Positions 9,994 to 32,857 of a stretch of DNA of 37,939 bases are shown here, piece after piece. The stretch comes from Gemmatimonadota bacterium (GTDB lineage: Bacteria; Latescibacterota; UBA2968; UBA8231): assembly GCA_018673255.1 (NCBI GenBank), contig JABHDC010000120.1:1-37939 (forward strand), written 5' to 3'. Position 1 is the first letter of the stretch, and the number at the start of each line of letters is the position of its first letter. The position numbers and the translations under genes were made by a program. The notes beneath the pieces are model-generated. The model searched no databases and was not told the DNA's origin. It was given only the letters and a program-made list of their open reading frames with translations.

Positions 9994-11727
9994 GTGGGAC
10001 GGAACCCATCTTCCGCTGACGCGCTCCTCCTGGTTCTGCTATGCCTGTTGGCTCATGGCCGCAGCATGGGAGGCGTGTTCCACTACGATGATCTGCACTC
10101 GATCGTCGACAATGAGCACATCCGTTCACTCGCACTGATTCCGGCGTTGTTCACAGATCCGACGACATTCTCCGGACTCTCCTTCGGGGCCATGTTCCGG
10201 CCTCTCGTGATGCTCTCCTATGCCCTGACCTATGCAGTTTTCGCGCTGGAACCGGGGATCTACCTGGCGACGAATTTCATCCTGCACGTGGGTGTGGTGC
10301 TGGTCTGCCTGGCCATCCTGCGCCATTTCATTGCAGACCGATTTCTGTTGTTGGGGGCGGCGGCACTGATCGGGGTTCACCCGGTGAATGTGGAAACGGT
10401 GGCCTATGTCAGCACTCGCTCAGAGTCGATGTGCGCTCTGTTCATGCTGCTGGGTCTGTGGTTGTTCTGGAAGGAGACTGGGCCACGCTGGTGGTATTGG
10501 TTGGCCGTGTTCTGTTATGCCTGTGCACTGATGAGCAAGTCCGTAGGGATCACACTGCTTCCCATGCTGGCGATTCACCAGATCTGGTTTGCCACAGGGT
10601 CACTGAAGTGCCGGGGGCTGAGGCTGCTTCCTTTCTTCGCGGTGACGATTGCCTACCTCACGATCGTTTCGGATCTGCTGAGGACATCTCTGGTCCAGGC
10701 ACCGGTGCGTGAAATGGGAGCGCAACTTCTGACGCAGAGCAAGGCCTTGATCTACTATCTGCATCTACTCTCGGTGCCATGGGGTCTGTCCGTTGAGCAT
10801 CAGTTCGAAATCGGTCGCAGTGGCGATGTCGTTGTCTGGCTGAGTGTCCTGTTCCTTCTCAGTTCGCTCCTGCTCATCATCGGCGCCGGGCTTGGTCAGC
10901 GATCGCGCTGGTGGCTGTTGTGGGGTCTGGTCGTGCTGGCACCGACACTGATCGTGCCACTTAACGTGCTGGTGAACGAGCATCGCCTCTACATGGTGTC
11001 CATTGGCTTTGCGGCGTTGCTTGGGACACTGATCGTTTCCGCATCGTTGCAGATCCAGCGTGTCAGCATGGTGGCGATCGGTCTTCTGGTCGTGCTGTCC
11101 TTCCAGCGGTCGGCAGTCTGGGCGGATACGCACATCCTGTGGCAGGATGCAGTGACCAAGGGCCCGATGATGCCGCGTGGGCACCTGTTTGTCGGCGACA
11201 GTGAGGCAGCCAGCGGGCGCTACGGCCAGGCGCTGGGCCACTACGAACAAGCCCTGCAGGTGAATCCGCCACTGCTGAGTGATGCTGATCGCCTGATCAT
11301 CCACAACAACCGGGGCGCCGCACTGCTCGCCCTTGGAGCCCTCGGCGAAGCCCGTCAGGCCTATCTGCAGGTTGTGGGTATCGACTCCACGTATCAGCCT
11401 GCACGGGATGCCCTGGCGGGGCTGGCGGCCTTTGATGCCGAAGGGGATGAGGAGAAGGCGCTCGTTGACCGCCGGAGGGGACTGAGTGCGATGGTTGCCG
11501 GCGATATCGGGGCGGCCACACACTATCTGCGCCAATCTCTGACTGTGATCAGCCATGGCGGCACCTGGCTGGTGTTGGGCAGTTGCCATGAGCGTCTGGG
11601 GCAGACGGAAGAAGCCGTCGACATCTACCGAATGCTGAGCCTGGGCTCCTCACAGGCGGCGATCACGGCCACCGAGCGCTTGGCCCGCCTGGGAGCGTCC
11701 GATGGTATCCAGAGTGCAGGACGGTGA
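9994..11727 (+). CDS. TMTC-like GT-C membrane glycosyltransferase with TPRs, copy 1 of 11
   Basis: 577 residues from GTG 9994. The first span covers about 8-22, and the first outer loop carries Tyr31-Asp32-Asp33-Leu-His. A Phe-Arg-Pro motif replaces the more common Tyr-Arg-Pro. The His129-Pro130 block reads 'ETVAYVSTRSES', the most divergent version of the Val-Asn-Tyr-Ile-Ser motif among the copies. Further spans run to the hinge near residue 370, followed by about four TPR-like units, the fewest in the array; the third is stretched by a charged insertion. The hinge reads 'DAVTKGPMMPR', nearly the same as copy 8 and related to copy 9, suggesting one subfamily. Likely role: transfer of a sugar from a polyprenyl-linked donor outside the inner membrane, with periplasmic TPRs binding the acceptor. 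This rests on the TMTC analogy. Confidence 0.8.
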   Translation: MGRNPSSADALLLVLLCLLAHGRSMGGVFHYDDLHSIVDNEHIRSLALIPALFTDPTTFSGLSFGAMFRPLVMLSYALTYAVFALEPGIYLATNFILHVGVVLVCLAILRHFIADRFLLLGAAALIGVHPVNVETVAYVSTRSESMCALFMLLGLWLFWKETGPRWWYWLAVFCYACALMSKSVGITLLPMLAIHQIWFATGSLKCRGLRLLPFFAVTIAYLTIVSDLLRTSLVQAPVREMGAQLLTQSKALIYYLHLLSVPWGLSVEHQFEIGRSGDVVVWLSVLFLLSSLLLIIGAGLGQRSRWWLLWGLVVLAPTLIVPLNVLVNEHRLYMVSIGFAALLGTLIVSASLQIQRVSMVAIGLLVVLSFQRSAVWADTHILWQDAVTKGPMMPRGHLFVGDSEAASGRYGQALGHYEQALQVNPPLLSDADRLIIHNNRGAALLALGALGEARQAYLQVVGIDSTYQPARDALAGLAAFDAEGDEEKALVDRRRGLSAMVAGDIGAATHYLRQSLTVISHGGTWLVLGSCHERLGQTEEAVDIYRMLSLGSSQAAITATERLARLGASDGIQSAGR

Positions 11728-13523
11728 GCATGTGGACGAAGATCGGACTGGGCGCCGGCCTGCTTGTGCTGGCGATCATCACCTTCGGCAACAGCCTGGG
11801 TGGGCCCTTCCAATACGACGATCTGCATTCGGTGCAATACAACCCGCACATCCGTTCGCTGAGCTGGATCCCGACCTACTTCGTCGATCCGTCCACCTTC
11901 TCCAGCCAGGCGCGCGGGTTCATGTATCGCCCGTTGTTGCTCACCACATACGCCATCGATTATGCCCTTTCGGGGCAGAGTGTCGCCGCCTTCCGCCTCG
12001 CGAATGTCATCGTCCATGTGGCGGCCTCGGCCGCCTTTGGCGCCCTGGCCTTCGTCCTCCTCCGCTGTGCGAAGGGGGCGATGATCGCTTCATGTCTGTT
12101 CCTGCTGCACCCGGCCCACAGTGAGGTCGTCAATTACATCAGCGCCCGCTCCGATTCTCTGGTGGCGGTCTTGTATCTGCTGGCCTGTACTGCGGTTCTC
12201 TGTCGGCGTCACACGTCCATGGTCGTGGCCTACACGGCGGGTCTGCTGGTGAAGTCGGTCGCTATCACGCTGCCGGCGATGTTGCCGATGCTGCGTGGTT
12301 GGGAGCCGGGCCGACGGGATTCGGATCTGCGGGGCAAGGCCCGTACTCGGTGGGGAATCGCCCTCGTCGGTGCGGTCAGTGTCCTTTATTTCCTGATTCT
12401 GTGGCGCTCTCGATTCCTGAGTCATTCAGCTGACATGTTCCCTCGTGCCATGTCGCTGGAAATCTGGACGCAGTTGAAGGCGCTCGTCTACTACGTCTTC
12501 CTGTTGGCGTCGCCGATCCGTCTCAGTGTTGATCATGCATTTCAGGTGGGAGTCGTCACGGACACAACCGTTCTGCTCTGTCTGGCAGTGATCTTGTCCT
12601 GTGTCGTGCTCAGCCTGCGTCACCGCCTCAGTCTGCCGGGTTTTTCTGCGATCTGGTTTGGTGTCTGCATGTTGCCGTATTCTGTACTTCCCCTGAATGT
12701 GCTGGTTGCAGAGCGACGCATGTATCTGGCCAGTGCGGGCGCGTTGTTGCTTGCCACATGGGCCTGGCAGCAACTTGCGGCCAGGCGTGGCCGGGGGATG
12801 AGTTGGATCGGGATCGCTCTGCTGGTCTGTTGCCTGGCCCTGACCGTGCAGAGGAATCAGGTCTGGTCCAGTTCTCTGGCACTGTGGTCGGATGCGTCGA
12901 TGAAGAACCCGGTTTCCGCCAGATCGAGGGTGAATCTGGCACTGGCCTATCGCGAGCAGGGCGATCTCGGCAATGCACGGATCCAACTCGACGAAGGGCT
13001 GCGTCTGGATCCGGGCTTTGCGGAAGGGTGGGTGGTCGCCGGCGATCTGGCCAGAGATGCCGGTCAGCAGGACGAAGCGCGGCTTGCCTATGAACGTGCG
13101 GCGCAGATTCAGCCGACAATGGAAGGTGTCTTCCATAACCTCGGCAATCTCTCCTATGGGCAGGGACAGTTCACCGAAGCGATCACACACTACGAAGAAG
13201 CTCTGCGTATCAACGCACGCTTTGCAGAGGCGCGCAACAATCTGGGCCAGGCGCTGGAGGCGGTGGGGGATGACGAATCGGCGCTGGCTCAATATGAGCA
13301 AGCCGTACAAGACTCCATCTTCTGGATTCACACCGATGACTCGGTAGGAGGTGCGTGGTACAATCTGGCCTGCCTCGCCGATCGATTGAATCTCGAAAGC
13401 AAGGCGGCCTCAGCCTTCCAGGAAACGGTCAATCACCTGTCGGGCGACGTTCGATACGCCCCCTATGTGGATCATGCGGGGCAGCGGCTGGCACAATTGC
13501 GGCAAGGGGGAAGTGGATCGTGA
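11724..13523 (+). CDS. TMTC-like GT-C membrane glycosyltransferase with TPRs, copy 2 of 11
   Basis: 599 residues; GTG 11724 overlaps the previous stop as GTGA (an ATG follows at 11730). The first span at about 8-25 leads into Phe-Gln-Tyr-Asp32-Asp33-Leu-His. Met-Tyr-Arg-Pro follows, then His129-Pro with 'SEVVNYISARSDSL', where Ser-Asp replaces the usual Ser-Glu. The distal membrane motif is 'LNVLVAERRMYLASAG'. The hinge is at about 373-385. Five TPRs span about 395-595; the third and fourth are near-consensus ('NLGNLSYGQGQFTEAITHYEEAL'-like, split here by the 20-residue limit) and the fourth has an extended C-terminal loop. The stop overlaps the start of the only non-paralogous gene in the array. 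Spans and motifs agree with a GT-C fold; sugar and acceptor are unknown. Confidence 0.82.
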   Translation: MSMWTKIGLGAGLLVLAIITFGNSLGGPFQYDDLHSVQYNPHIRSLSWIPTYFVDPSTFSSQARGFMYRPLLLTTYAIDYALSGQSVAAFRLANVIVHVAASAAFGALAFVLLRCAKGAMIASCLFLLHPAHSEVVNYISARSDSLVAVLYLLACTAVLCRRHTSMVVAYTAGLLVKSVAITLPAMLPMLRGWEPGRRDSDLRGKARTRWGIALVGAVSVLYFLILWRSRFLSHSADMFPRAMSLEIWTQLKALVYYVFLLASPIRLSVDHAFQVGVVTDTTVLLCLAVILSCVVLSLRHRLSLPGFSAIWFGVCMLPYSVLPLNVLVAERRMYLASAGALLLATWAWQQLAARRGRGMSWIGIALLVCCLALTVQRNQVWSSSLALWSDASMKNPVSARSRVNLALAYREQGDLGNARIQLDEGLRLDPGFAEGWVVAGDLARDAGQQDEARLAYERAAQIQPTMEGVFHNLGNLSYGQGQFTEAITHYEEALRINARFAEARNNLGQALEAVGDDESALAQYEQAVQDSIFWIHTDDSVGGAWYNLACLADRLNLESKAASAFQETVNHLSGDVRYAPYVDHAGQRLAQLRQGGSGS

Positions 13524-14692
13524 AGGTCTGTTTCATCTCCTGTCAGTATCCGCCCTTGTCACGCACGTATCGGCGTTACCAGTTCGCCCACCTGTTGCGG
13601 GAGGGAGGCTGTGATGTCACCGTCGTGGCCCATGGCAATATGTCCACGGCATTGGGCACCTTCGTCGATGATCCTGGCACACTGCCGGCCGATGGGCCAA
13701 GTGTCGTTCGTCCCAGAGCCATTCCCTGGTATCTGACGGGTGAACTGTTGTCGCGCGCCGGCATGATCTGTTGTCCTTACGTCAACTGGATCCGTCCCGC
13801 CGTGCGGGCAGCCAGTCGTCTGGTGGGGCCCGATGACGTGGTCTGCGGAATCTATCCACCCGTGACCAATGCCATCGTTGCCCTGCGTGTGGCTGAGAAG
13901 ACCGGCGCCAGATTGGTGCTGGATTTCCGTGACGAGTATTTGGGCCTGGCACACGGTGTCAGGCGTCGCCTGGCCCGACGCTGGCAGCAGCGACTGCTCT
14001 ACCGGGCCGACCTGGTATCGGTGGCAACGGCCGCGATCGGTGAGAGTTTTGTCGCAGCCGGCCTGGATCCGAGTCGTGTTCACCTGACGGAGAATGGCTA
14101 CTGGGAAGCGCCGGACGTGATTCCTGCCTACGAGGCCGGGGAGAAGACCCGGATCGCGTACATCGGCGCCATCTCGGCGGCCCAGGGTCTCGGCGTGTTG
14201 GTACAGGCGATGGACCGACTGCGGCGGGATGATCCCGATTGCGCCCAACGGATCGAGGTCGAGATCTACGGCCCCGATACACCCCATCGCCGGGCGATCC
14301 TCTCAGGGACACTGCCACCTGGTGTGAGTTACCAGGGCTACCTCCCGGCTCAGGATGTCAGTGATGTACTGCTGAAGTCCGATGTGGCTTTCCTGTCTCT
14401 GTCCTCTGACCGATACGCCTATGCTGTACCCGGAAAACTCTACGACTACGTGGCTCACGCTCGGCCCGTGCTGGCCAGCCTGCCCGCTGGATCGGCGCAG
14501 CGGGTGATCGATGCCGATGGCCTGGGATGGGTGGCAGCTTGTGGCGACGTGGCAGGGCTGGCGCGTCTGCTGGCCCGGGTAGGGGAACCGGCCGAGCGGC
14601 ACCGTGTTCAGCAACAGGTGCTGGCAGCCCGTGAACGCCATGCGGCGCGGCCACATTTTCTGGCGCTGTCACGACGGATACAGTCCCTGTGA
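13520..14692 (+). CDS. GT4-like (GT-B fold) cytoplasmic glycosyltransferase
   Basis: 390 residues from GTG 13520, which overlaps the previous stop as GTGA. A longer open frame back to 13355 is embedded in copy 2 and is not credible. The start 'KVCFISCQYPPLSRTYRR' is the usual first strand and loop of GT-B enzymes. 'LDFRDEYLG' (Asp135) closes the N-terminal Rossmann domain, 'RIAYIGAISAAQGL' opens the C-terminal domain, and Pro304-Gly-Lys-Leu-Tyr-Asp-Tyr-Val-Ala is the nucleotide-sugar-binding region found in GT4 proteins. It has no membrane span and should use a nucleotide-sugar donor on the cytoplasmic side. Its place between copies 2 and 3 suggests it makes or extends the lipid-linked donor or acceptor used by the membrane enzymes. 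That is inferred from position only. Confidence 0.82.
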   Translation: MKVCFISCQYPPLSRTYRRYQFAHLLREGGCDVTVVAHGNMSTALGTFVDDPGTLPADGPSVVRPRAIPWYLTGELLSRAGMICCPYVNWIRPAVRAASRLVGPDDVVCGIYPPVTNAIVALRVAEKTGARLVLDFRDEYLGLAHGVRRRLARRWQQRLLYRADLVSVATAAIGESFVAAGLDPSRVHLTENGYWEAPDVIPAYEAGEKTRIAYIGAISAAQGLGVLVQAMDRLRRDDPDCAQRIEVEIYGPDTPHRRAILSGTLPPGVSYQGYLPAQDVSDVLLKSDVAFLSLSSDRYAYAVPGKLYDYVAHARPVLASLPAGSAQRVIDADGLGWVAACGDVAGLARLLARVGEPAERHRVQQQVLAARERHAARPHFLALSRRIQSL

Positions 14693-16551
14693 CCGGCCTC
14701 TGGCGTACTGTGCCGGTCTGGCCCGTTCTCTTGGTGGCGGTCGTCTTCTCCATGACGATCGACCATCCATTTCACTTCGATGACGAGCATTCGATCACGC
14801 AGAATCCACATGTGCAGTTACCCGTCGACTGGGACCGGATCCTGACCGATCCGGCCGTGTTCTCTCGGAATCCGGGTAGTGGCATGTATCGTCCTGTCGT
14901 CATGGTCAGCTATGTGGCCAATGCAGCGCTCGGCGCTTTCGATCCGAGTGGATGGCACGTGGTGAATCTCCTCGTGCACGTTCTCTGTACGGCCCTGGTC
15001 GGGAGCCTGGCGGGGCGACTCACCGGCGATCGTCTGGCGCAATACACGGCGGCCCTGCTGTTTGGCCTGCATCCGCTGGTGGCGGAACCGGTCAACTACA
15101 TCAGCAGTCGCTCGGAGTCGATGGCCCTGCTGTTCTGTCTGGCCAGCATGCTGAGCTATCTGCACGCCCGCGGCAGGGTCGCGCTGTATGCGTTGTCGAC
15201 GACCCTGTTCACACTGGGGTTGGGATGCAAGGTCACGGCGATTCTGGCATTGCCCGTGCTTATCCTGTGGGAAGCGTCTGGATCGCGCCTGGTGACGAAC
15301 TGGCGCCGGTGGGCACCCCTGGGCCTTGTGGCGGCTTCTTACGTCGTGTTCGTGCGCCAGCTGTGGCAGGAGGCGATGCTTACGAGCCCCGTGCGTGAAC
15401 CGGTGCTTCACGTGCTGACACAACTGAAGGCGCTCTCCTACTACCTCAAGCTGGTCCTGATGCCCGTGGGATTCACGGTCGAACACGCCTTTGTTGCGAC
15501 CACATATTTTCTGGATCCGGTCGTGCTGGCCTCAGCCGGGCTGATGGCGACGATGCTGTGGCTGACCCTGCAGGCGGCGAATCGACGATGGATCTACCTC
15601 GGGCTCTGGCCTGTGCTGAGCCTGTTGCCAACGATCGTGGTTCCCCTCAACGTGCTGGTCAGCGAACACCGTCTGTATCCGGCCCTGGCCGGCATCGCCC
15701 TTCTGGCCGGCATGGGCGTGCGTCACCTCATGCCCAGCACGAGGCGCATCAGTATGCTGGCGATCGTCCTGCTCGCTGCGCTGAGTATCGGCCGCAATGG
15801 CGTGTGGGCGACGGAACAGTCCTTGTGGGAAGAGGCCGCAGTGCGTGGTCACAGTCTTCGCGCTCAGGTTCGGCTCGGTGTGTACCATCGCCAGTCGGGG
15901 GATCTGGATCGGGCCGAACACCATCTGCGCCTGGCACTGGCCCGGGACGCCGACCATGCGCCGGCGTTGAACAATCTGGGCAATGTCATGCGGCAGCGCG
16001 GACGGGTCGATGAAGCAGAGGATCTCTACGAAACGGCTCTCAATCTGTTGCCGGCCTATCCGGACGCCCTGATCAACCTCGGTTCGTTGCGGGCCCAGCG
16101 AGGGGAATTCGATGAAGCGCTCGATCTCTATGAACGGGCCACGCAGATTGCACCAGATCACTATCAGGGCTGGAACAATCTGGGGACACTGTTCCTGAAC
16201 CAGGAGCGGGGTGTCGAGGCGGAGACGGCACTGCGCCAAGGTCTGCGACGCCGGCCCGATTCTGCCCGGATGCTCTACAATCTGAGTGGGGCGCTGGAGT
16301 TGCAGAATCGGTCGAAAGAGGCCATGCAGGCACTGCGGGAAGCCGTCAGCCACGATGCCGACTATGCGCCTGCCTGGCTCAACCTTGGGAACCTGCTGCA
16401 TCGACTCGGTCGAGGCAGCGAAGCGCTCACCTCCTATGAGCGATTCCTCGAAACCTATCGAGGAGATCGGGTCATTGTCGAACAGGTCCGGTCACAGATG
16501 GATGTCCTGCGACGAGCGGCAGACGCCCAGGATCGGCCGGCAGCTGGATGA
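14689..16551 (+). CDS. TMTC-like GT-C membrane glycosyltransferase with TPRs, copy 3 of 11
   Basis: 620 residues; GTG 14689 overlaps the stop of the GT4-like gene (GTGA). Motifs: Phe-His-Phe-Asp31-Asp32-Glu-His, Met-Tyr-Arg-Pro, His128-Pro129 with 'EPVNYISSRSES' (133-144), 'TQLKALSYYLKL' near 244, and 'NVLVSEHRLY' ending at Tyr330. The post-block lysine motif is 'GCKVTAI', with Cys in place of Ser before the Lys, unique in the array. The hinge is near 375-385. Six clean 34-residue TPRs fill about 388-600 with few insertions, each with the Asn-Leu-Gly and Ala/Glu-Ala-x-x-x-Tyr pattern. The most regular TPR block of the array makes it a good reference for modelling the fold. Confidence 0.84.
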   Translation: MTGLWRTVPVWPVLLVAVVFSMTIDHPFHFDDEHSITQNPHVQLPVDWDRILTDPAVFSRNPGSGMYRPVVMVSYVANAALGAFDPSGWHVVNLLVHVLCTALVGSLAGRLTGDRLAQYTAALLFGLHPLVAEPVNYISSRSESMALLFCLASMLSYLHARGRVALYALSTTLFTLGLGCKVTAILALPVLILWEASGSRLVTNWRRWAPLGLVAASYVVFVRQLWQEAMLTSPVREPVLHVLTQLKALSYYLKLVLMPVGFTVEHAFVATTYFLDPVVLASAGLMATMLWLTLQAANRRWIYLGLWPVLSLLPTIVVPLNVLVSEHRLYPALAGIALLAGMGVRHLMPSTRRISMLAIVLLAALSIGRNGVWATEQSLWEEAAVRGHSLRAQVRLGVYHRQSGDLDRAEHHLRLALARDADHAPALNNLGNVMRQRGRVDEAEDLYETALNLLPAYPDALINLGSLRAQRGEFDEALDLYERATQIAPDHYQGWNNLGTLFLNQERGVEAETALRQGLRRRPDSARMLYNLSGALELQNRSKEAMQALREAVSHDADYAPAWLNLGNLLHRLGRGSEALTSYERFLETYRGDRVIVEQVRSQMDVLRRAADAQDRPAAG

Positions 16552-18407
16552 ATCTTCTGTCTACCGATCCTAGCCGCCGGATCTCTCCAGTGGCCACCAG
16601 ACTGGCCCTCGGACTGGCTGTTGTTCTGGCCGTGATCTATGGCTCGAGTCTGGACTTTCCATTTCAGTTCGATGATGGCCACAGCATCGTTGAGAATCCA
16701 CACATCCGGTCGTTCGCGAACGTGCCTTCCTTCTTTGTCGACCCCGCCATGTTCTCTGTGGATCCGTCCTTGATGATGTATCGGCCGGTGGTGCTGACCA
16801 GTTACGCCCTCAACTATCTGATCTCGCAGCTGCATCCCTGGAGTTACCACCTGCTCAATCTGCTGACGCATCTGAGCGTCGTGCTCGGTGTCGGTCTGTT
16901 GGCACGGCAGCTCACCAGATCTGCAGAGGGGGGGTGGCTGGCTGCGTGGCTGTTTGCCGTCCACCCCATTCACAGTGAGGCCGTCTACTACATCAGCAGC
17001 CGTTCGGAGAGTCTTGCCTGTCTTGCGGTGCTGGTCGCATTTCTACTGCACCTGCGCTCTGAACGATGGGCGCCGATCGGATCGGTCCTGCTGCTGGCCC
17101 TGGGGCTGGCGAGCAAGTCCGTGGCGATCGCCCTGCTGCCACTGGTGCTGCTGCATGACACGCTGGTCGAGCCCGGCGCCTGGCGTCAGCGATGGCAGCG
17201 ACATGCCGCACTGTGGGTCGTGGCCCTCCTCTATGTGATGCAGACGAGATCCATCATCGCCCGGGCGACGATAGGCGACCCGGTGCGCAGCTACACAGAA
17301 CAGTGGTGGACGCAGGTGAAGGCCATGTCCTACTACCTTCATTTGCTTGTCATTCCCCGCGGATTGAGCGTTGATCATCAGTTTCTCATTTCCGACAGCC
17401 TGCTGGATCCTTACGCAGCCGCCGCACTGGCTGTCTGTGGAAGCCTGCTCCTGGTTCTGCTTCGTCTCGGGCGTCGCCGCCTGTCATTGTTTCTCGCCCT
17501 GTGGTTTCTGGTTGCGCTGGCGCCGGCCTCACTGGTTCCACTCAATGTCATCGTCAACGAACATCGACTCTATCTGGCCGGTGTCGGTGTCGCGATCGGA
17601 CTGGCAGCATTGGTGCTGCCCAACGACCGTGCCCGCCGGGGACTGGCGTGGACACTGCCTTTGCTGGCTCTGCTGACGTCACAGAGAGGTGAAGTCTGGG
17701 CCTCTCACGAGGCATTGTGGCAGGATGCGGTCCGTAAGGCGCCGGGCATGGCACGTCCCCACATCATGCTGGGGCAGGTCTATCAGCTGCAAGGCGACGA
17801 CGCGCGCACGATCAAGTGGCTGGATGCAGCTCTGGTTCGCGATTCGACCTATGCACCGGCGTATGTGTCTCTGAGCGATGCCCATGCCCGTCTTGGCGAC
17901 ATGGAGGCAGCCGCGCGCATGGCCCGACGCGGCGCGCACGTCCTGCCGGATTCGGTGGGCATGTGGTCGCACCTGGCGCAGATCGAGCGGACCGTGGCCA
18001 TGGCTTCCTCATCCGGATCCGCGCGATCGGCAGCCTTTGAGGCCAGCGCCCTCGCCTACGAGCATGCTCTCAGGCTGTCGCCAGATGATGCGGATTTGCA
18101 CGATAATCTGGGCAATACGTACCAGGAGCTTGGACGACCGGGACAGGCGCTGCCTCACCATCAACGCGCCGTGTTTCTGCGCCCGACCCGTGCTGTCTCT
18201 CGCCTGAACCACGGCAACGTGTTGTTCATGATGGGGGATCTGAAGGGGGCCGCGGCGGAATATCGCACCGCGATCCGACTCGCCCCGAATGATGCGGCCG
18301 CCTGGGCCAGTCTCAGTCTCGTGCTGCAACGTCTCGAGCATGTTGAGGATGCCGCCAGTGCATGGAAACGGGCTCAGGCGCTGGGTTGGGGTGCTGGAGG
18401 AAGATGA
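16548..18407 (+). CDS. TMTC-like GT-C membrane glycosyltransferase with TPRs, copy 4 of 11
   Basis: 619 residues; ATG 16548 overlaps the previous stop as ATGA. The cytoplasmic N-terminus is about ten residues longer than in most copies, so the Asp-Asp pair is at 42-43 (Phe-Gln-Phe-Asp-Asp-Gly-His). Met-Tyr-Arg-Pro follows. The block at His139-Pro reads 'HSEAVYYISSRSESL', with Tyr in place of the usual Asn; 'HPIHSEAV' is very close to the eukaryotic TMTC 'HPIHTEAV'. 'PRGLSVDHQF' is shared almost exactly with copy 7. The hinge is at about 379-392 and about six TPRs follow to the end, the third carrying a Ser/Ala-rich insertion of roughly 12 residues. No stop-codon gap separates it from copy 5. 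Confidence 0.84.
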   Translation: MNLLSTDPSRRISPVATRLALGLAVVLAVIYGSSLDFPFQFDDGHSIVENPHIRSFANVPSFFVDPAMFSVDPSLMMYRPVVLTSYALNYLISQLHPWSYHLLNLLTHLSVVLGVGLLARQLTRSAEGGWLAAWLFAVHPIHSEAVYYISSRSESLACLAVLVAFLLHLRSERWAPIGSVLLLALGLASKSVAIALLPLVLLHDTLVEPGAWRQRWQRHAALWVVALLYVMQTRSIIARATIGDPVRSYTEQWWTQVKAMSYYLHLLVIPRGLSVDHQFLISDSLLDPYAAAALAVCGSLLLVLLRLGRRRLSLFLALWFLVALAPASLVPLNVIVNEHRLYLAGVGVAIGLAALVLPNDRARRGLAWTLPLLALLTSQRGEVWASHEALWQDAVRKAPGMARPHIMLGQVYQLQGDDARTIKWLDAALVRDSTYAPAYVSLSDAHARLGDMEAAARMARRGAHVLPDSVGMWSHLAQIERTVAMASSSGSARSAAFEASALAYEHALRLSPDDADLHDNLGNTYQELGRPGQALPHHQRAVFLRPTRAVSRLNHGNVLFMMGDLKGAAAEYRTAIRLAPNDAAAWASLSLVLQRLEHVEDAASAWKRAQALGWGAGGR

Positions 18408-24527: not shown

Positions 24528-26380
24528 GAACTTTCATGGCGCGTTATGGGTGGGCCGCAGTGGCCTTCGTGGTCCTGCTCGTACACGCGCCGAGCCTGGA
24601 GGGTGTCTTCCACTACGACGACGATCACAGTATCGTCCGCAATACGTCGATCCGAGAACTGAGCCGGATTCCCTCCTATTTCGTCGACCCTGACCTGTTC
24701 TCTGCAGATCCGGGCCGTGGCATGTTTCGCCCGGTGTTGTTGACAAGTTATGCCATCAATCGGGCCCTTCTCGGTGCCACTGCCGGCGGATTTCTCGTCG
24801 TGAATCTGCTGATACATGCCGCCAATGCGGCCCTCGTGGCACTGATTGCTCGCCATTGGCTCACCATGACCTCGGGTGTGGCAGCAGGGCTGCTCTTCGG
24901 TCTGCATCCATTGAGCACCGAGCCGGTCAACTACGCGAGTGCGCGTTCGGATTCGCTCGTGGCCTTCTTTGTTCTGCTGACGATTCAACTCGCGTTGCAT
25001 CGTGGGCACGGGCTGCATTTCAGAGCCCGTTCGACTGCGGCCGCCGCCCTGGCGCTGCTGACCAAGTCGACGGCCATCGTCACGGCGCCACTGCTGATGG
25101 TGGTGGATTGGCTGGAGAAGGGTGCCGGCTCATGGACGAGTCTGGTGCGTCGGCACCGGCTCGTGATTGGTTTGAGTGGTCTCTATCTGTTGCTGATCTG
25201 GATGAATGGGTTCCTGCCGCGTTCGCTTGAACGGGAGGCCATCCCCCTGGTGCAGCGCCTGATGACACAGGTCAAAGCTCTCATCCATTACCTGCAGACC
25301 CTGGTGATGCCCGTCGCCCTGAGCCCAGAGCCACCCTTTCTGCTTTCGACCTCTGCTTCCCTCGTCGTTCTGTGCGCCCTGGCCTTGCTTGCCTCCCTCG
25401 TTGTAGTCGTCATCGCCCTGAATCGTCAGCGATTCCGTGGGCCCATGGCGTTTGCCTTGTGGATGATCTGCTGTCTGGCGCCGGCAGGATTGGCGCCGTT
25501 GAATGTTCTGGTCAACGACCGACGACTCTATCTACCCATGGCCGGCGTGGCCATCGCCGTAGCTGCCTTCGGGCCGCTGCTTCGACGAGGTCGATGGACT
25601 CATGGCATGGTCGTGGGATCGCTGGTCCTGCTGGTCCTGCTGGCTCTGCTCAGCCTCCAGCGGTCGCAGATCTGGGCGGATGACCTGCAACTGTGGCAGG
25701 ACGCGGTCACGACGGGTCCCATGATGCCACGGGCGCAGTTGTATCTTGGTGATGCTCACCTGCGCGCACTTGAGACTGGAGATACCGCCCACCGGGCGTC
25801 GGCACGCCGCGCGTATGAACAGGTGCTGGCGCTTAAGCCACGGCAGCAGATGCTGAGCATGCAGGCTGGCAATGGTCTGGCATGGCTCGACCTGTCCGAG
25901 GGCAGGCTGTCAGAGGCTCTTCTGCGGCTCGAAGCGATTGTGGCAGACTCGCCTGGCTACTGTGATGCCTGGGTGAATCTGGGCAGCGCCCACTATCAGG
26001 CAGGATTGCAGGGTCAGTCGGGAGCCCTGGAGAAAGCCCTGCATGCCTACGATCGTGCGCTGGGTCTGCGCCCCGGCCGCTGGGAGGCACATCTCAATCG
26101 AGGGGCTGTGCTACAGGTGACGGGCAGGCTCGATGAGGCGGAAGAGGCCTACCGTCATGCAATCAGGCTGATGCCGACACAGTCAGGGGCGGCGATGAAT
26201 CTTGGGGGATTGTTCATGCTGCGTGCTCGCCTGGCCACCGATCTCAACCAGCGCATCCGGCACTGGCAGCAGGCACGAGGCGCCTATCAGCAGGCCGCGC
26301 TCCTCGGCAATCCGGTTGCAGTCCGGGCCATACAGGCCACCCAGGATTCGATGGCGTCGAATCGGGGGGGTGCCCGGTGA
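24524..26380 (+). CDS. TMTC-like GT-C membrane glycosyltransferase with TPRs, copy 8 of 11
   Basis: 618 residues; ATG 24524 overlaps the previous stop as ATGA. Motifs: Phe-His-Tyr-Asp32-Asp33-Asp-His, Met-Phe-Arg-Pro, and His128-Pro 'STEPVNYASARSDSL', where Ala and Asp replace Ile and Glu. The extracytoplasmic 'LSPEPPF' replaces 'LSVDHxF'. The distal motif is 'NVLVNDRRLYLPMAG'. The hinge 'DAVTTGPMMPRAQLYLGDA' near 390-408 is shared with copies 1 and 9, grouping them. About five TPRs follow, three of them lengthened by 6-12 residue insertions between the helices, including 'ATDLNQRIRHWQQARGA' near the end, which resembles an insertion at the same place in copy 9. These insertions could shape a distinct acceptor groove. 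Confidence 0.84.
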   Translation: MRTFMARYGWAAVAFVVLLVHAPSLEGVFHYDDDHSIVRNTSIRELSRIPSYFVDPDLFSADPGRGMFRPVLLTSYAINRALLGATAGGFLVVNLLIHAANAALVALIARHWLTMTSGVAAGLLFGLHPLSTEPVNYASARSDSLVAFFVLLTIQLALHRGHGLHFRARSTAAAALALLTKSTAIVTAPLLMVVDWLEKGAGSWTSLVRRHRLVIGLSGLYLLLIWMNGFLPRSLEREAIPLVQRLMTQVKALIHYLQTLVMPVALSPEPPFLLSTSASLVVLCALALLASLVVVVIALNRQRFRGPMAFALWMICCLAPAGLAPLNVLVNDRRLYLPMAGVAIAVAAFGPLLRRGRWTHGMVVGSLVLLVLLALLSLQRSQIWADDLQLWQDAVTTGPMMPRAQLYLGDAHLRALETGDTAHRASARRAYEQVLALKPRQQMLSMQAGNGLAWLDLSEGRLSEALLRLEAIVADSPGYCDAWVNLGSAHYQAGLQGQSGALEKALHAYDRALGLRPGRWEAHLNRGAVLQVTGRLDEAEEAYRHAIRLMPTQSGAAMNLGGLFMLRARLATDLNQRIRHWQQARGAYQQAALLGNPVAVRAIQATQDSMASNRGGAR

Positions 26381-28344
26381 CGGTGCTGAAGAGATTGCTC
26401 CGGCTGCCACCCTGGGCCCTGATCGGGGTCGTTGCTGCCGCTGTCTGGTGGGGGAGTCTGGACAATAACTTCCACTACGATGACGAACATTCCATCCTCC
26501 TCAATATCCATCTGCGGATCGCCCCCGGTGCGGCAGACCTGGTCGGGGCTGTGGGCGGCTACTTCTCTGATCCGGCGACGTTCTCCCGGGATCACAACAA
26601 GGGTATGTATCGCCCGCTGCTGGTGACCAGCTTCGCCCTGAATCACGCCTTCAATCTTGCGGCGGATCTGGATGGATACGATGTACGCAGCTATCACATC
26701 ATCAATGTGATCATTCACACGATCAATGCCGTGCTGCTGTGGTGGATGATGAGTCTGCTCTGGCCCCGTTGGCGTGGCTCGGGCCCAGGATTGGTAGCCG
26801 GGTTGATCTTCCTGGTGTGGCCGCTGGCGAGTGAACCGGTCAACTACATCAGCAGCCGCAGTGAGAGTCTTGCATCCCTCTTCTACCTGCTGTCATTGTG
26901 TCTGTTTCTCCTGAGCCAACAGCGTGGGGGAGCGCGCTGGCGCTGGGGCTGTTGGGCTGCCATGGCAGCCGGTCTGATGACCAAGTCCACGGTGATTACG
27001 CTGCCTGCTGCGCTGTTGCTGATAGATCTGACCCTCATCAGCCAGTTCAATCTGCGACGGCTTGCAGCCAGGCTCTGGCGATGGCATGTGCCGGGCATAT
27101 TCGTCGCGGCTGGTTATCTGTGTCTCATCGTCCTGAATGGTTTCCTCGGCCGATCTCTCGGTGCCCCTGTGCGCGAAGCTTGGCCACAGGCTCTGACGCA
27201 GCTGAAGGGACTCGGCTACTATCTGCAATTGCTGTCCATGCCGACGCATCTGAGTGTGGAGCCCCAGTTCAGCGAGCAGACCACACTGAGCCCGACGACC
27301 GTGGTCGGGTTCCTCCTGGCTGCGTCTCTCGGAGCCGGTCTCGTGTGGCTCTGGCATCGACGGCACGGTCGTGCCCTGGCATTGGTCGGGATCGCGATCC
27401 TGCACATGCTGCCGACAATGGTGATGCCCCTCAATGTCTTCGTGAATGAGCGTCGAGCCTATTTGCCCCTGGCACTGGCTTGTGTCGGTGTCGTATCACT
27501 GGCTTGCCACTTCTCCCGGCGATTGCCATGGCATGTGTTTGTGCCGATTGCATTGCTTGTGGCGGCGGCAATGTCGTTCGAGCGCAATCGGGTCTGGGCC
27601 GACGGCGATTCGCTGTGGGCCGATGCGGTGATGCGGGCACCCCAGATGCCGCGCCCACATCTGTATCTGGGCAACGCCTACAAGGACAGGGCGCTGCGGA
27701 CACGCGATGAGAGCCAGCGCAATGCCCTGTGGGCGCAGGCGGCGGCTCAATACGAGCGGACACTTACCATGCAGAGCGATGTTGATCTGCAAGTGCGCGC
27801 ACTCAACAATCTCGGTGGCGTGCACTTCGAACGCGGAGATATACACGCGGCCGAACGGGCCTTCCGTCGGGCTGTGAAGACGGGGCCGAACTACGCCGAT
27901 GGTCTCATCAACCTCGGCAATGCCCTGCTGAAGAGGGGGACGCTGACCGGTGACAGTAATCTACGTGGGCGGCTTTTCCAGGAGAGTGTCGACTACTACC
28001 GGCGAGGCCTGACGTCTGAGCCGAACAACTACTTCGGTCACGGCAACCTTGGGGTTGCTATGCAGGAATTGGGACGATGGGATGAGGCGGAGTCTTCCTT
28101 TCGTCAGGCCCTGTATCTGTTTCCCCGGCACGATGGCTCCCTGACGAATCTGTCGGCCCTGTTGCTGACTCGCGCTGAACGAACCGAAGATGCCGGGAAG
28201 CGTGTGCAGTTGTTGAAGGAGGCGGAGCACCTTGTACGGCAGTCGTTGGCGATCAACCCCGCTCAGGTGCGGGCACCCGAAGTCCTGAGACGAGTCTCGG
28301 CCGGCTTGGGTGCGGCGAGCCAGGCCTCAGGTCAGGCTCACTGA
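26377..28344 (+). CDS. TMTC-like GT-C membrane glycosyltransferase with TPRs, copy 9 of 11
   Basis: 655 residues; GTG 26377 overlaps the previous stop as GTGA. Phe-His-Tyr-Asp35-Asp36-Glu-His is followed by a first outer loop about 12 residues longer than in the sisters. Met-Tyr-Arg-Pro is intact. The otherwise invariant His of the His-Pro block is Trp148 ('VWPLASEPVNYISS'), the only such replacement in the array, while the rest of the block is canonical. The distal motif is 'NVFVNERRAYLPLA'. The hinge near 403 continues into 'APQMPRPHLYLGNA', placing it with copies 1 and 8. About five TPRs follow with long inter-helix insertions ('RTRDESQRNALWAQ', 'TGDSNLRGRLFQ', 'RTEDAGKRVQL'). Confidence 0.84.
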   Translation: MTVLKRLLRLPPWALIGVVAAAVWWGSLDNNFHYDDEHSILLNIHLRIAPGAADLVGAVGGYFSDPATFSRDHNKGMYRPLLVTSFALNHAFNLAADLDGYDVRSYHIINVIIHTINAVLLWWMMSLLWPRWRGSGPGLVAGLIFLVWPLASEPVNYISSRSESLASLFYLLSLCLFLLSQQRGGARWRWGCWAAMAAGLMTKSTVITLPAALLLIDLTLISQFNLRRLAARLWRWHVPGIFVAAGYLCLIVLNGFLGRSLGAPVREAWPQALTQLKGLGYYLQLLSMPTHLSVEPQFSEQTTLSPTTVVGFLLAASLGAGLVWLWHRRHGRALALVGIAILHMLPTMVMPLNVFVNERRAYLPLALACVGVVSLACHFSRRLPWHVFVPIALLVAAAMSFERNRVWADGDSLWADAVMRAPQMPRPHLYLGNAYKDRALRTRDESQRNALWAQAAAQYERTLTMQSDVDLQVRALNNLGGVHFERGDIHAAERAFRRAVKTGPNYADGLINLGNALLKRGTLTGDSNLRGRLFQESVDYYRRGLTSEPNNYFGHGNLGVAMQELGRWDEAESSFRQALYLFPRHDGSLTNLSALLLTRAERTEDAGKRVQLLKEAEHLVRQSLAINPAQVRAPEVLRRVSAGLGAASQASGQAH

Positions 28345-30551
28345 TGCGAGTACATCGGGGACTCTGGGAGGGGCTGGGAATCGTCCTCCTCGTGCTGTTG
28401 GTCTATGGCGGCAGCCTCGATAACAGCTTCCACTTCGACGACGACCACTCCATCGTCAAGAATCAGAACCTGCAGTCGCTGATCTCGATTCCACGCTCCT
28501 TCGTGGATGCAGGCACCTTCTCTGGAGACCCGCAGTATGGCCTGATGTATCGGCCCATGCTGGTCTCATCGCTGGTCGTCAACTATGCCATCAGCGGGTT
28601 GGCACCCTGGAGTTATCATCTCTTCAATGTCCTGTTGCACGCTGCCGTCTGCCTGTCCGTATTGGCATGGCTTCGACGCTGGCAGCCGGCCCTGGCTCGC
28701 AGTGCCGGCGTGGTGGTGGCTCTTCTGGCCGTGCACCCGATCAACAGCCAGATCGTCAACTACATCAGCGCGCGGGCGGGGATCGGGGCCGCCCTTGGCG
28801 TGATTGGGGCGTGTCTTGCAGCTGAGGCCTGCCGCAATTCGACTCGATTTGGTGGCACCCTGGCCCTCCATGTGGGGGCGTTGCTGTCGAAGTCGACGGC
28901 GATCGTGCTGGTGCCGCTGTTGGCCCTGCGTGCTGCGGGTGCAGGCTCGCCCCGAAAATGGCGGGCGCCGCTGAGCGCCGCCTTCATCTCCAGCGCCCTC
29001 TATCTGGTGGCAGCGACGGCGACGAAGTTCCTGGGTCCCTCGTTGTCCCAGCTGGTGCGGCCCCTCGATGTGCAGATCATGACCCAGTCGAAGGCCATCG
29101 TCTACTATCTCTGGCTCCTGGCGATTCCGGCGAATCTGAGCGTCATCCATGATTTTCACATCGCCTGGGAGCCGACAATCACCGTCCTGGCTGCTGCCTG
29201 CCTGCTCGGGTCGGTGACGGCTCTGGCCCTCATCGCCTGGATACGGCATCAGTACGCAGCCGCCTATGGTGTGCTCTGGTTTCTTGGGGGACTCGGTGTC
29301 ACATTCCTGATGCCCCTTCACGTCATCATCAGCGAACACCGTCTCTATCTGTCCGGCGCGGGCGCGGCGCTGTTCGGACTGTGTATCGTCGGAGCTCGTC
29401 CGCCGCGAGGCCATCGGGTCATCTGGACTGTGGCCATCGTTCTGTTGGGGGCGATGACGATGAACAGGACGGCTGTCTGGCAGAGCGAATCGAGCCTCTG
29501 GTCTGCAGCCCTTCGGCAGGCGCCCACCAGTTCTCGTGTGCGCGCAAATGTCGGTCGATCCCACTTTCTGGCGGGGGATCTGGCGGCGGCAGGCGAGGTC
29601 TGGCATGCGGCGCTGGCCCTGGATCCGCAGAACACGGTGATCCTGCTGAGTCTGGGATCACTGGAGGAGGATCGGGGGAATCTCGATCTGGCTCAGGCCT
29701 TCTATCGTCGAGCCCTGACCAGTGATCCGGAGAGTGGACCGGCGAATCGCCAACTGGGAATGTCGCTGGCTCGACACGGAGAAACGCCACAGGCTCTGCC
29801 ACTGCTTGAGAAGGCTGTCGCCCTGGACCCAAATGCGGCGGCCCTGACCGGCCTGGCTGTCGTGCGGCGCCGCCTTGGTGACCTGCAGGGCGCGCGGCTC
29901 AGTCTTGAAGCTGCGCTGTTGATCGACCCTGAACATGTAGATGCTCTGGTGAACCTCGGCGGACTTCACCAGGAAGAAGCCATGCGGGATCGGTCGGTGC
30001 CCTCTACCGGTCTCGACGCGGCCCGTAAGATCTATGAACGTGTCCTGCGGATGGATCCGGCTCATCAGGAGGCACTGCTCAATCTTGGTGAGTTACTCGG
30101 ATACCTGGGAGAAGATGCGGCCGCCGTCGAAACGTATCGGCAGCTCACGACGGCCCACCCCGGCCTGGTCACCGCCCACACCGGTCTGTCAGATGCACTG
30201 GCCAGGGCAGGGGATCTGCCTGCAGCGACCCGCGCCATGGAGGTGGCACTGGGGCTGGACTCGACCGACGCCAGCGTATGGGCAGAGCTGGGGGGGCTGC
30301 AGGCTCGCACTCAACAGTTCGCGCGTGCAGCAAAGGCTCTTGAACGAGCGCGCCAATTGGGGGACGCGAGGCCCCAGATCCTGTATAACCTTGCCGAGAT
30401 TCTGGTCGTGCTGGGGCAGGCAGAATGGGGGCAGGGGAACCTTGATCTTGCCCGCCATCATTGGACGTCGGCCCTGAGTCACTACCGGCAACTCCCCGAA
30501 TATCGTCGCAGCGGCGAGCGAGTTACTGAATTGGAACGACGTCTGCGATGA
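28344..30551 (+). CDS. TMTC-like GT-C membrane glycosyltransferase with TPRs, copy 10 of 11
   Basis: 735 residues; ATG 28344 is on the last base of the previous TGA. Phe-His-Phe-Asp32-Asp33-Asp-His and Met-Tyr-Arg-Pro are intact. The block at His131-Pro reads 'INSQIVNYISARAGIG': Gln replaces the Glu kept by copies 1-9, and Ala-Gly replaces Ser-Glu. The distal motif is 'PLHVIISEHRLYLSGAG', resembling copy 11. These shared changes mark copies 10 and 11 as a sister pair. The hinge is near 375, and about nine TPRs fill the remaining 340 residues, with a final long unit rich in Gln and His. If the Glu contributes to catalysis or lipid binding, this copy may have different chemistry or reduced activity. 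Confidence 0.83.
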   Translation: MRVHRGLWEGLGIVLLVLLVYGGSLDNSFHFDDDHSIVKNQNLQSLISIPRSFVDAGTFSGDPQYGLMYRPMLVSSLVVNYAISGLAPWSYHLFNVLLHAAVCLSVLAWLRRWQPALARSAGVVVALLAVHPINSQIVNYISARAGIGAALGVIGACLAAEACRNSTRFGGTLALHVGALLSKSTAIVLVPLLALRAAGAGSPRKWRAPLSAAFISSALYLVAATATKFLGPSLSQLVRPLDVQIMTQSKAIVYYLWLLAIPANLSVIHDFHIAWEPTITVLAAACLLGSVTALALIAWIRHQYAAAYGVLWFLGGLGVTFLMPLHVIISEHRLYLSGAGAALFGLCIVGARPPRGHRVIWTVAIVLLGAMTMNRTAVWQSESSLWSAALRQAPTSSRVRANVGRSHFLAGDLAAAGEVWHAALALDPQNTVILLSLGSLEEDRGNLDLAQAFYRRALTSDPESGPANRQLGMSLARHGETPQALPLLEKAVALDPNAAALTGLAVVRRRLGDLQGARLSLEAALLIDPEHVDALVNLGGLHQEEAMRDRSVPSTGLDAARKIYERVLRMDPAHQEALLNLGELLGYLGEDAAAVETYRQLTTAHPGLVTAHTGLSDALARAGDLPAATRAMEVALGLDSTDASVWAELGGLQARTQQFARAAKALERARQLGDARPQILYNLAEILVVLGQAEWGQGNLDLARHHWTSALSHYRQLPEYRRSGERVTELERRLR

Positions 30552-32857
30552 GGCTCGCCGGCTCCAGACGAAGCGCAAGGGCGTGGTGGCTCGTCCTGAT
30601 CGCAGCGATCGTGCCATTTCTCAATACGCTGGGAAATGGATTTCACGATGATGATCAACATGCGATTCTGCAGAACCACCACCTGAGAGCCCTGACGAAC
30701 ATCCCCTCTTTCTTCCTGGATTCCTCCACATTCTCCGGTGAACCCGGCAAGGGCATGTACCGCCCCGTCTTCCAGACCACGTTGGCCCTCAATTACGCTG
30801 TCGGAGGGGATGACCCTCGGGGATATCACCTGGTCAGCATCGCATTTCATGCGCTGACCTGCCTGGGGTTGTTGCTGACGGCGTCACGCTTCGTTCCATT
30901 CCCACTGGCCCTGGCTGCGACGCTGTTGTTCGCCGTGCACCCGATCCATACACAGGCGATCAACTACATCAGCAGTCGATCCGAACTGATGGCCACCTGT
31001 GGCGTGATCTGGGCGCTCTGGTGCGTCTTGCGTGGCAGGATATGGGGCGGGGCCGCCCTGTTCGCGCTGGCGCTGCTGAGCAAGTCCGTCGCGATCCATT
31101 TCCTGCCGATTCTGTTACTGGCCATGTGGATCCTGGCCGATCGGACACGACTTGCCCGTGTGCCGTCAGACGCAGCGGGTGTCAGCCCGGCGGCGTCTGG
31201 CCCGAAGCAGGCCGATCCCACACCGGCCGATCTCGTCACCCTTGATGGCCGTATTCGGTGGCATCGTGTCCTGCCCTTTGCCGCCGTTGCAGCAGCCTAT
31301 GGGCTCATCATCAGTCTTGAGGGATTTCTGCCGCGCTCTCTGGCACAGGATGTGAGGCCCCTGACGAGCCAGATCGCCACGCAGGCGCAGGTGGTCGTCC
31401 TCTACCTGCAGGCGCTGTGCATGCCCGTTCGCTTGAGCATCGAACACGGGCTGCTGCCGACGACGGCGGCCAACCTGCATTCATGGATCTGCCTGCTCTT
31501 CATCTGCAGTCTGGGTGGCCTCGGGGGACTCGGCCTGCGACGGTCCGCATGGAAGGTCTCGGGGTTCGGCCTCGGCTGGTTCTTTGTTGGACTGGGCGTG
31601 ACGAGCCTCGTGCCGCTGACAGTGATCGCCAGTGAGCAGCGGCTGTATCTGTCGACGGCTGGACTCCTCATCGCCCTGGTCGCCCTGATCGGGGGAGATG
31701 CGGGCCATCGGCGGCTGCGACCTATCGCGGGTTCTGTTCTGGTTGCGACCCTCTTGGTGATGGGGACCCTGTCTGTTGAGCGTAATTCATTGTGGGAGAA
31801 TGAATTAACCCTATGGTCTGATGCTGCAGAGAAAGCGCCCCATTCGCCCAGAGCCCAGGGCAATCTGGCCCTTGCCCTCCATGAGGCAGGGGATCTGGAG
31901 GCAGCGGGACGCACCTACAAACAGGCGATTGGCCTCGACAGGGGCCACCCCCGGATCCGCACGAACTACGGCACCTGGCTCGAGGAGTCGGGGCAGTGGC
32001 AGGAGGCGGAACAGCAGTATCTGACAGCGGCTCGCCATCACTGGTCCGGTGCCCGTGTCCAGTTGGGACGCCTCTATCTGGCACAGGGGCGCCTGCAGAT
32101 GGCCAGAGATCAGCTGGATCTGGCCCTGCAGGTGAATCCGACTGATGTCGAAGCGCACCACCACCTGGGTCGGTGGCACCAGGCCAACGGTGATCCTGTG
32201 GCGGCGCTGGGGGCCTATCGTGAGGCACTGCGTATCGATCCAGCCTATGCGCCGGCAGCGAACAATCTGGGTCTGCTGCTGGTGGATGCGGGGGATGTGG
32301 CAGCCGGACGGCAATCGCTGGCCCGCGCTGCTGAGAGAGATCCGGATGGGGAGGCGATCGTCAATCTCGCGTATGTGGATCTGCGCACCGAGGGGCAGAC
32401 GGCGGTTCAGGCATACGAGCAATTGTGGGCACGTTACCCCGAGCGACCGACGGTGGCCCTGGCCCTGATCCGCGCCCTGGCACGCGAGGGCGCGTGGTCG
32501 AGTGCAGTCCAGGTCATCGATGCGGCCAGGGACACTCATCCGCTGGAACTGGATTTCGTGATCGCTGCTGGTGATGCGTACCGCGCGACGGGCAACTGGC
32601 AGGAGGCGATCGAGGTTTACACCCTGGCGCTGAAGGGACGCTCTGCAGATGTGTCCCTGCGCAATCGTCTGGCGGCCTCTCTGGCGGCTGCCGGGCATCC
32701 AGAGGCGGCGATAGTACAGACCCGGAGGGTCCTGGCACAGGACGCCGAAAATGCCGTGGCCCGCAGGAATTTGAAGCGGCTTCTGTCCGCCCTGCCGGAC
32801 CTGCTGCCCGGCATGTCTCCCAGCCTGGATTTAGACACGGTAGATGGCCGTAAGTGA
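30548..32857 (+). CDS. TMTC-like GT-C membrane glycosyltransferase with TPRs, copy 11 of 11
   Basis: 769 residues, the longest copy; ATG 30548 overlaps the previous stop as ATGA. The loop motif reads Phe-His-Asp34-Asp35-Asp36-Gln-His-Ala, with an extra Asp in place of the Tyr/Phe seen in the other ten. Met-Tyr-Arg-Pro and His131-Pro 'IHTQAINYISSRSELM' follow; 'HPIHTQA' is one residue from the eukaryotic TMTC sequence. A Pro/Ala-rich insertion of about 30 residues ('VSPAASGPKQADPTPADL') lies in a loop after the lysine motif. 'PLTVIASEQRLYLSTAG' replaces the usual distal motif. The hinge is at about 412, then nine TPRs. The stop at 32855-32857 ends the array, and a separate promoter follows within 5 nt. 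Confidence 0.83.
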   Translation: MRLAGSRRSARAWWLVLIAAIVPFLNTLGNGFHDDDQHAILQNHHLRALTNIPSFFLDSSTFSGEPGKGMYRPVFQTTLALNYAVGGDDPRGYHLVSIAFHALTCLGLLLTASRFVPFPLALAATLLFAVHPIHTQAINYISSRSELMATCGVIWALWCVLRGRIWGGAALFALALLSKSVAIHFLPILLLAMWILADRTRLARVPSDAAGVSPAASGPKQADPTPADLVTLDGRIRWHRVLPFAAVAAAYGLIISLEGFLPRSLAQDVRPLTSQIATQAQVVVLYLQALCMPVRLSIEHGLLPTTAANLHSWICLLFICSLGGLGGLGLRRSAWKVSGFGLGWFFVGLGVTSLVPLTVIASEQRLYLSTAGLLIALVALIGGDAGHRRLRPIAGSVLVATLLVMGTLSVERNSLWENELTLWSDAAEKAPHSPRAQGNLALALHEAGDLEAAGRTYKQAIGLDRGHPRIRTNYGTWLEESGQWQEAEQQYLTAARHHWSGARVQLGRLYLAQGRLQMARDQLDLALQVNPTDVEAHHHLGRWHQANGDPVAALGAYREALRIDPAYAPAANNLGLLLVDAGDVAAGRQSLARAAERDPDGEAIVNLAYVDLRTEGQTAVQAYEQLWARYPERPTVALALIRALAREGAWSSAVQVIDAARDTHPLELDFVIAAGDAYRATGNWQEAIEVYTLALKGRSADVSLRNRLAASLAAAGHPEAAIVQTRRVLAQDAENAVARRNLKRLLSALPDLLPGMSPSLDLDTVDGRK

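Follow-up and report, generated by a model that had tools for sequence, protein, structure and literature searches.

What might a bacterium use eleven related membrane glycosyltransferase genes for, kept together in one block? We asked this of contig JABHDC010000120.1 (assembly GCA_018673255.1, a Gemmatimonadota bacterium placed by GTDB in Latescibacterota), analysed over its 37,939 nucleotides (the window). By comparison of open reading frames and their translations, eleven plus-strand genes of one family lie within positions 9994-32857. We found that this array is an old, ordered set with ancient position-specific divergence, and that its genes very probably encode sugar transferases of the GT-C type, each with an arm of tetratricopeptide repeats (TPRs). 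That each enzyme performs one step on a surface glycan is the reading we prefer, with a probability of roughly 0.5.

An array of membrane domains with TPR arms

The genes of the array and the gene after it, in a window of 61.6% G+C, are as follows (lengths in amino acids, aa):

9994..11727, +, array copy 1 (GT-C domain and TPRs, 577 aa); position group 1; alignment, Pfam
11724..13523, +, array copy 2 (599 aa); position group 2; alignment, Pfam
13520..14692, +, GT4-type glycosyltransferase between copies 2 and 3; Pfam, synteny
14689..16551, +, array copy 3 (620 aa); counterparts only in G001 and G002; alignment, Pfam
16548..18407, +, array copy 4 (619 aa), with the modelled GT-C fold (predicted local distance difference test, pLDDT, 95.5); position group 4
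18404..20554, +, array copy 5 (716 aa), the sole copy over the PMT_2 cut-off; counterparts in G001, G002 and G003
20551..22470, +, array copy 6 (639 aa); counterparts in G002, G003 and X022b/G069
22467..24527, +, array copy 7 (686 aa); position group 7
24524..26380, +, array copy 8 (618 aa); counterparts only in G001 and G002
26377..28344, +, array copy 9 (655 aa); position group 9 (rank 8 in nine-copy arrays)
28344..30551, +, array copy 10 (735 aa), divergent (model pLDDT 94.1); alignment, Pfam, model
30548..32857, +, array copy 11 (769 aa), last before lepA; position group 11 (rank 9 in nine-copy arrays)
32942..34741, +, presumed lepA, likely start 32942, first gene after the array; alignment and general knowledge

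A preliminary description of this DNA had eleven paralogues in tandem. The single block stands, but the run is not uninterrupted, as the GT4 gene at 13520-14692 divides it into two and nine. From copy 1 to copy 11, with the GT4 gene counted, ten of the 11 junctions are 4-nucleotide overlaps and one is a 1-nucleotide overlap; because of these overlaps, the array is probably an operon. The shared family is borne out: the N-terminal stretches of the copies, when cut at 373-424 aa, can be aligned over their full length with 24 invariant columns and a pairwise identity of 29-45% (median 36%, 55 pairs), far beyond chance, and Pfam finds TPRs in all eleven.

Structure prediction of copy 4 gave a GT-C fold for the membrane domain, as had been proposed, so the outcome named beforehand as refuting the idea, absence of this fold, did not arise; the structural match was made by VIA-align, with ArnT as the best match (11% identity). 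The aspartate pair lies in the first external loop, probably at the catalytic place near D55/E56 of ArnT, judging from the matched ranges rather than a residue-level superposition, with PMC7801869 as a second basis. Eleven membrane helices were counted in the model, followed by the TPRs, and hydropathy alone gives 9-11 segments per copy; from the odd helix count, the TPRs are probably periplasmic. With the copy-4 model, the 50 Foldseek matches listed were all TPR or other helical-repeat proteins, with no GT-C protein among them; with the copy-10 model, the 50 VIA-align matches listed were TPR or solenoid proteins, some spanning the membrane part; and a PDB sequence search with the array alignment A1 gave chance matches only (best E 0.3, coronavirus nsp7). 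By Pfam, copy 5 exceeds the PMT_2 (PF13231) cut-off (33.7 vs 26.1 bits), and the other ten copies exceed neither this cut-off nor that of PMT (PF02366), the matches by which we would have assigned them to GT39 PMT enzymes.

The ordered motif set described earlier is present, but it is more variable than was stated. Tyr-Arg-Pro reads Phe-Arg-Pro in copies 1, 7 and 8; His-Pro reads Trp-Pro in copy 9; in place of Arg-Ser-Glu, copies 2 and 8 have Arg-Ser-Asp and copy 10 has Arg-Ala-Gly; and Asn-Glu-His-Arg-Leu-Tyr is exact in just copies 1 and 4, with [E/D]-[H/R/Q]-R-x-Y as the core that the copies have in common. The aspartate pair of loop 1 is found in all eleven copies and in 137 of the 137 array-family rows in which the column is filled; His45, Arg152, Lys190, Arg340 and Tyr342 are likewise common to all eleven.

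Synteny and position groups

Comparable arrays with the same layout were found in related genomes. A contig scan across 84,980 species yielded 383 related stretches, from which the best 80 (69 loci) were kept. Arrays of this layout occur in metagenome-assembled genomes (MAGs) titled Gemmatimonadetes, Latescibacterota and Handelsmanbacteria. These titles mix names of one GTDB phylum, because a phylum search around G001 held all of G001-G015; 17 of the 64 genomes of that phylum have a match at E <= 1e-60, G024 only just.

Wherever the contig continues (11 of 11 genomes: G002, G004, G005 and G007-G014), lepA is the next gene after the array, with 23-769 nucleotides between the end of the last open frame and the start of the lepA match; the contigs of G001, G003 and G006 stop before that point. 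Unsplit arrays that reach lepA have 11 copies in the window, 10 and a 163-aa remnant in G002, nine each in G004, G005 and G011, and six in G012. Two copies lie on the contig of G010 and two on that of G014. The G013 locus (L041 3-3562), with a single array gene between an AsnB-like fragment and lepA, is perhaps a reduced array. Between copies 2 and 3 a GT4 gene is present in the window, G001, G002, G003, G012 and G069, and an AsnB-like gene takes its place in G004, G005, G007, G009 and G011.

We found that the positions of the array recur across genomes. In a quick tree of 160 domains, from which one duplicate row and all fragments below 230 positions were excluded, groups 1, 2, 4, 7, 9 and 11 each join the window copy with near and distant genomes (SH-like approximate likelihood ratio test 97-100). 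In a careful tree of 63 chosen domains, each of the six groups had a single origin in all 200 bootstrap trees (100%), and ultrafast bootstrap support was 98-100 except in group 9, where it was 94; the groups were taken from the quick tree, so the careful tree confirms their support, not their discovery. Together the six groups need 5 changes, the minimum, vs 25.8 in shuffles, and in G004 and G005 they stand at ranks 1, 2, 4, 7, 8 and 9. Copy 10 falls inside group 11 in the careful tree and has no counterpart, and those of copies 3, 5, 6 and 8 are confined to G001, G002, G003 or G069. Gene order agrees in 662 of 669 reciprocal-best-hit comparisons (55 array pairs), and in 241 of 244 on unsplit contigs (28 pairs).

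Divergence between positions is matched by constancy within them. For 18 same-position pairs between the window and G001 or G002, the glycosyltransferase parts are 54-67% identical and the TPR parts, which are nearly equal in length, 47-62%, and the top match of the TPR part is the same-position TPR for 10 of the 11 window copies. A residue survey of 57 sites picked by eye gave a similar picture. Site 144 is Q in 11/11 last-position genes and E otherwise; site 154 is D in 11/11 position-2 genes and mixed at position 9 (E in 9/14); site 339 is R in 11/11 genes of position 2 and 14/14 of position 9, and H in 10/10 of position 1 and 11/11 of position 7; and site 276 is D in 9/9 position-4 genes and mixed at position 7 (H in 6/11). 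Several residues beside the predicted donor or acceptor site thus often appear to vary between positions while being fixed within them. The kept place and gene order in relatives suggest a separate, constant task for every enzyme, and the copies are likely non-interchangeable in their roles.

Apart from these arrays, a second locus, seen on two contigs (L029 9.6-14.7 kb and L034 9.3-16.2 kb), has two TMTC-like copies and a third, on the opposite strand in L034; on both contigs it lies near aspS and phoH. In a Deltaproteobacteria genome (bin23, CP070770), five tandem TMTC-like genes (L064 1890-12091) form a clade of their own among 16 matches in the genome; this run is apparently an independent expansion.

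Relation to TMTC proteins and other GT-C enzymes

The copies had been likened to the eukaryotic O-mannosyltransferases TMTC1-4 (GT105), and much of that likeness holds: the domain order is the same (in the copy-4 model, 11 membrane helices and then TPRs), the set comprises several enzymes, and the proteins are homologous to bacterial PF08409 proteins. By the motifs of PMC7801869 (Table 4), loop 1 has the aspartate pair and (Y/F)RP in both, loop 2 has R-x-acid, loop 3 a lysine and loop 4 an acid, and acid-basic-R-x-Y precedes the tenth membrane helix (TM10); a human TMTC3 segment given in that paper, '...AVHPIHT', is close to AVHPIHS of copy 4. Taken singly, motif M1 (DD in loop 1) is present in all copies. 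(Y/F)RP of M2 (SHKSYRP) is in 11/11 and the preceding S-H-K-S is absent. The arginine of M3 (R-x-D) is in 11/11, with an acid at +2 in 10/11 (E in eight, D in two, G in copy 10), and the lysine of M4 (K-E) is in 11/11, with the adjoining E in copies 5 and 7 only. M5 (D-W) has its acid in 9/11 (copies 7 and 10 have Q and I, respectively) and next to it H or P, never W. In M6 (P-x-x-P) one proline is invariant and the second lies five residues earlier in 9/11, so that the spacing differs. M7 (E-R-x-x-Y) keeps its acid and tyrosine in 11/11, with H in six, R in four and Q in one at the second place and an invariant R one later.

Membership in TMTC/GT105 was not supported. None of the families listed at E <= 0.01 for the 11 whole proteins was PF08409 (DUF1736), and against the N-terminal domains it reached E 0.053 in one copy of 11, below any cut-off; M2, M4 and M7 are kept only in part. 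Nine of the 11 copies lack KE, the Lys/His before YRP is absent, and loop 4 is about 30 residues shorter by our own count, a comparison of motifs in which no eukaryotic sequence was aligned. An array of 6-11 distinct enzymes in one bacterial gene block is a further difference from TMTC1-4. Nor did the analysis yield evidence for mannose as the sugar.

Bacterial PF08409 proteins share full-length GT-C homology and the TPR tail with the array. When the array alignment A1 was compared with alignment A4 (40 PF08409-positive bacterial proteins out of 120 listed matches), the two matched at E 1.3e-59 over 380 columns, with DD on DD, YRP on YRP and R-x-E on R-x-E. In a tree of 71 domains without eukaryotic TMTC, a branch with 100/99 support split 35 PF08409 proteins from the array family. 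Because of this homology, the separate clade and the lack of a PF08409 match of weight, the array family appears to be a sister subfamily of bacterial TMTC-like enzymes and not TMTC proper. A search for eukaryotic TMTC proteins via a PF08409-positive bacterial protein gave, among the best 120 of 605 hits, names that were bacterial or absent. PF08409-positive proteins over cut-off occur at non-array loci in 6 of 11 genomes searched, and not in the nearest relatives, G001 and G002; such TMTC-like genes apart from the arrays of the same genomes were seen at L070-L077 and L079.

Among other GT-C enzymes, ArnT (GT83) differs in having 13 membrane helices, another periplasmic domain and no TPR. GT39 PMT and bacterial PMT enzymes are set apart by the TPR arm of the array copies, in which no MIR domain was seen. 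The ALG and PIG series are alike in that several diverged GT-C enzymes act on one product (PMC6801728), which for the array is only proposed, but their genes are eukaryotic, scattered and without TPR arms.

The protein kind is already known, as PMC7801869 mentions full-length TMTC homologues in many uncharacterised prokaryotes. The earlier remark that a TPR label is all such proteins carry fits many of the hits with names, but the entry 'protein O-mannosyl-transferase' already stands in a few JGI records. New is the ordered, lepA-linked array with position-specific conservation; among the entries listed from the open-access literature we found no array of TMTC-like genes (subscription papers and preprints lay outside this scope). 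A diverged set that has kept its order is a natural experiment, with up to eleven related enzymes per genome that presumably differ in donor or acceptor. Rules for the specificity of GT-C and TPR parts could be read from it, and it would bear on the origin of animal TMTC O-mannosylation and supply a toolkit for sugar transfer outside the membrane.

Proposed function and neighbouring genes

In the mechanism we favour, the eleven genes would encode extracytoplasmic GT-C glycosyltransferases of 11 membrane helices each. The catalytic aspartate pair would sit in the first external loop, a polyprenyl-phosphate sugar would be held by other loops (His/Arg-Arg before TM10, the lysine of loop 3, the acid of loop 4), and the periplasmic TPR solenoid would hold the acceptor, for which a growing glycan is our guess. 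The copies would not be spares, each position having its own conserved catalytic domain and TPR arm; each enzyme would be dedicated to transfer of a single sugar or to a single linkage on a surface glycan, in the way that the ALG and PIG series use one GT-C enzyme per sugar of one glycan, and neighbouring glycan genes would supply the building blocks. Activity, periplasmic orientation, the lipid-linked donor and the TPR role are deduced, whereas the copy-4 fold, motif conservation, position-specific divergence and synteny were observed by computation. More tentative is an ordered periplasmic assembly line, in which 6-11 GT-C/TPR enzymes beside lepA would each add one linkage of a single complex surface glycan, their TPR arms holding the chain or docking the enzymes together.

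As judged from their sequences, the nameable flank genes are of glycan type. Those upstream in the window are:

364..2235, +, membrane glycosyltransferase-like protein with a PMT_2 match, no TPR found; Pfam
2304..4211, +, AsnB-like amidotransferase (TIGR01536 over cut-off, TIGR03108 below); homologue between copies 2 and 3 in five genomes
4208..5140, +, polysaccharide deacetylase; Pfam
5128..5961, +, peptidase M55 family; Pfam
5971..7854, +, second, divergent asparagine-synthase-like protein; Pfam, NCBIfam
7844..8989, +, CapA-like protein (PGA_cap); Pfam
8991..9986, +, class I methyltransferase; Pfam

Downstream, the order is lepA, signal peptidase, hemW and GHMP kinase; the names lepA, hemW and thrB are ones we presume from alignment and general knowledge. 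In related genomes, the L005 flank has a GT4 gene and a DegT aminotransferase fused to a sulfotransferase domain, for which the ArnB and PseC NCBIfam models score highest, both below cut-off (ArnB best, 383.5 vs 631 bits). The L004 flank has WbuX, GT4, a methyltransferase, a protein of FemAB/GNAT type and a further TMTC-like gene, and that of L014 a phosphodiesterase and a hydrophobic protein shared with L019.

Several points weigh against the glycan-step reading. Array size varies (11, 10 and a remnant, 9, 9, 9 and 6, with one copy on the G013 contig), and copies 3, 5, 6, 8 and 10 have no supported counterpart in distant arrays. The window shares only 3-5 best hits per pair with eight distant arrays, all three discordant comparisons among unsplit arrays involve the window, and some best hits run counter to the tree groups, linking G004 rank 1 to copy 4, G005 rank 6 to copy 3 and G011 array rank 3 to copy 7. 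Distant orthology is drawn from the tree, not from best hits. Relatedness explains part of the constancy within positions, and the sites were chosen by eye. The flanking glycan genes differ between genomes and may be chance neighbours, and no family member has known chemistry. TPRs more often bind protein, which fits protein acceptors.

The strongest rival, possible though unlikely, has one enzyme per acceptor protein, each adding a single sugar to its own class of exported protein or domain chosen by the TPR arm, much as TMTC1-4 and TMEM260 serve different domain classes. The TMTC-like domain order, and TPRs that diverge between positions and are kept within them, agree with it, and for TMTC1-4 the TPRs are proposed to recruit the acceptor domain (PMC11292533). 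Yet no acceptor gene lies in the window, and the nameable genes of the flanks examined are for glycan synthesis, not surface proteins. Cadherin domains exceeded the Pfam cut-off in 0 of 16 subfamily genomes (G001-G015, G069; one match below cut-off in G009) vs 20 of 48 others of the phylum, a comparison that covers cadherin only and is limited by genome incompleteness and shared descent. Given this negative association, cadherin was rejected as acceptor. The 20 subfamily-free genomes with cadherin-domain proteins are among G028-G068, and some of the frames run to thousands of residues. It is because of the glycan-type flanks and the cadherin distribution that we prefer glycan steps over one enzyme per protein.

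Decoration of lipid A, capsule or a wall polymer at several positions is a good deal less probable. ArnT, which decorates with aminoarabinose, is the best structural match of copy 4, and the L005 aminotransferase scores best with the ArnB model; but ArnT has no TPR arm, and it is also the best solved match for eukaryotic TMTCs (PMC7801869), so the match says little on substrate.

Less probable again is that the GT-C domain is dead and the copies act as scaffolds without catalysis or as TPR transport proteins. Copy 10, the most altered at the predicted site, has Q, G and I for E144, E154 and D276 of copy 4, and G002 has at the matching place only a 163-aa frame with a weak match (L010 15788-16276). 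This may be a decaying position, and copy 10 alone may be a pseudoenzyme; against dead domains throughout stand the seven site residues common to all copies. Recent tandem amplification (for gene dosage, or phase or antigenic variation) or an assembly artefact is hardly credible and was rejected: tandem repeats of one family can arise so, and the five-copy array of G020, a clade of its own, looks lineage-specific, but copies within a genome are 28-56% identical (median 40, BLASTP, 11 genomes), with no sign of recent copies or gene conversion, the position groups span genomes, and similar arrays occur in MAGs from many separate projects.

At window positions 5971-8989, the divergent asparagine-synthase-like and CapA-like genes gave weak matches to lasso-peptide models, far below cut-off. 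The hydrophobic protein shared by L014 (7638-9944) and L019 (1-2325), of about 770 aa and with no Pfam match, is 65% identical between the two and lies directly before copy 1.

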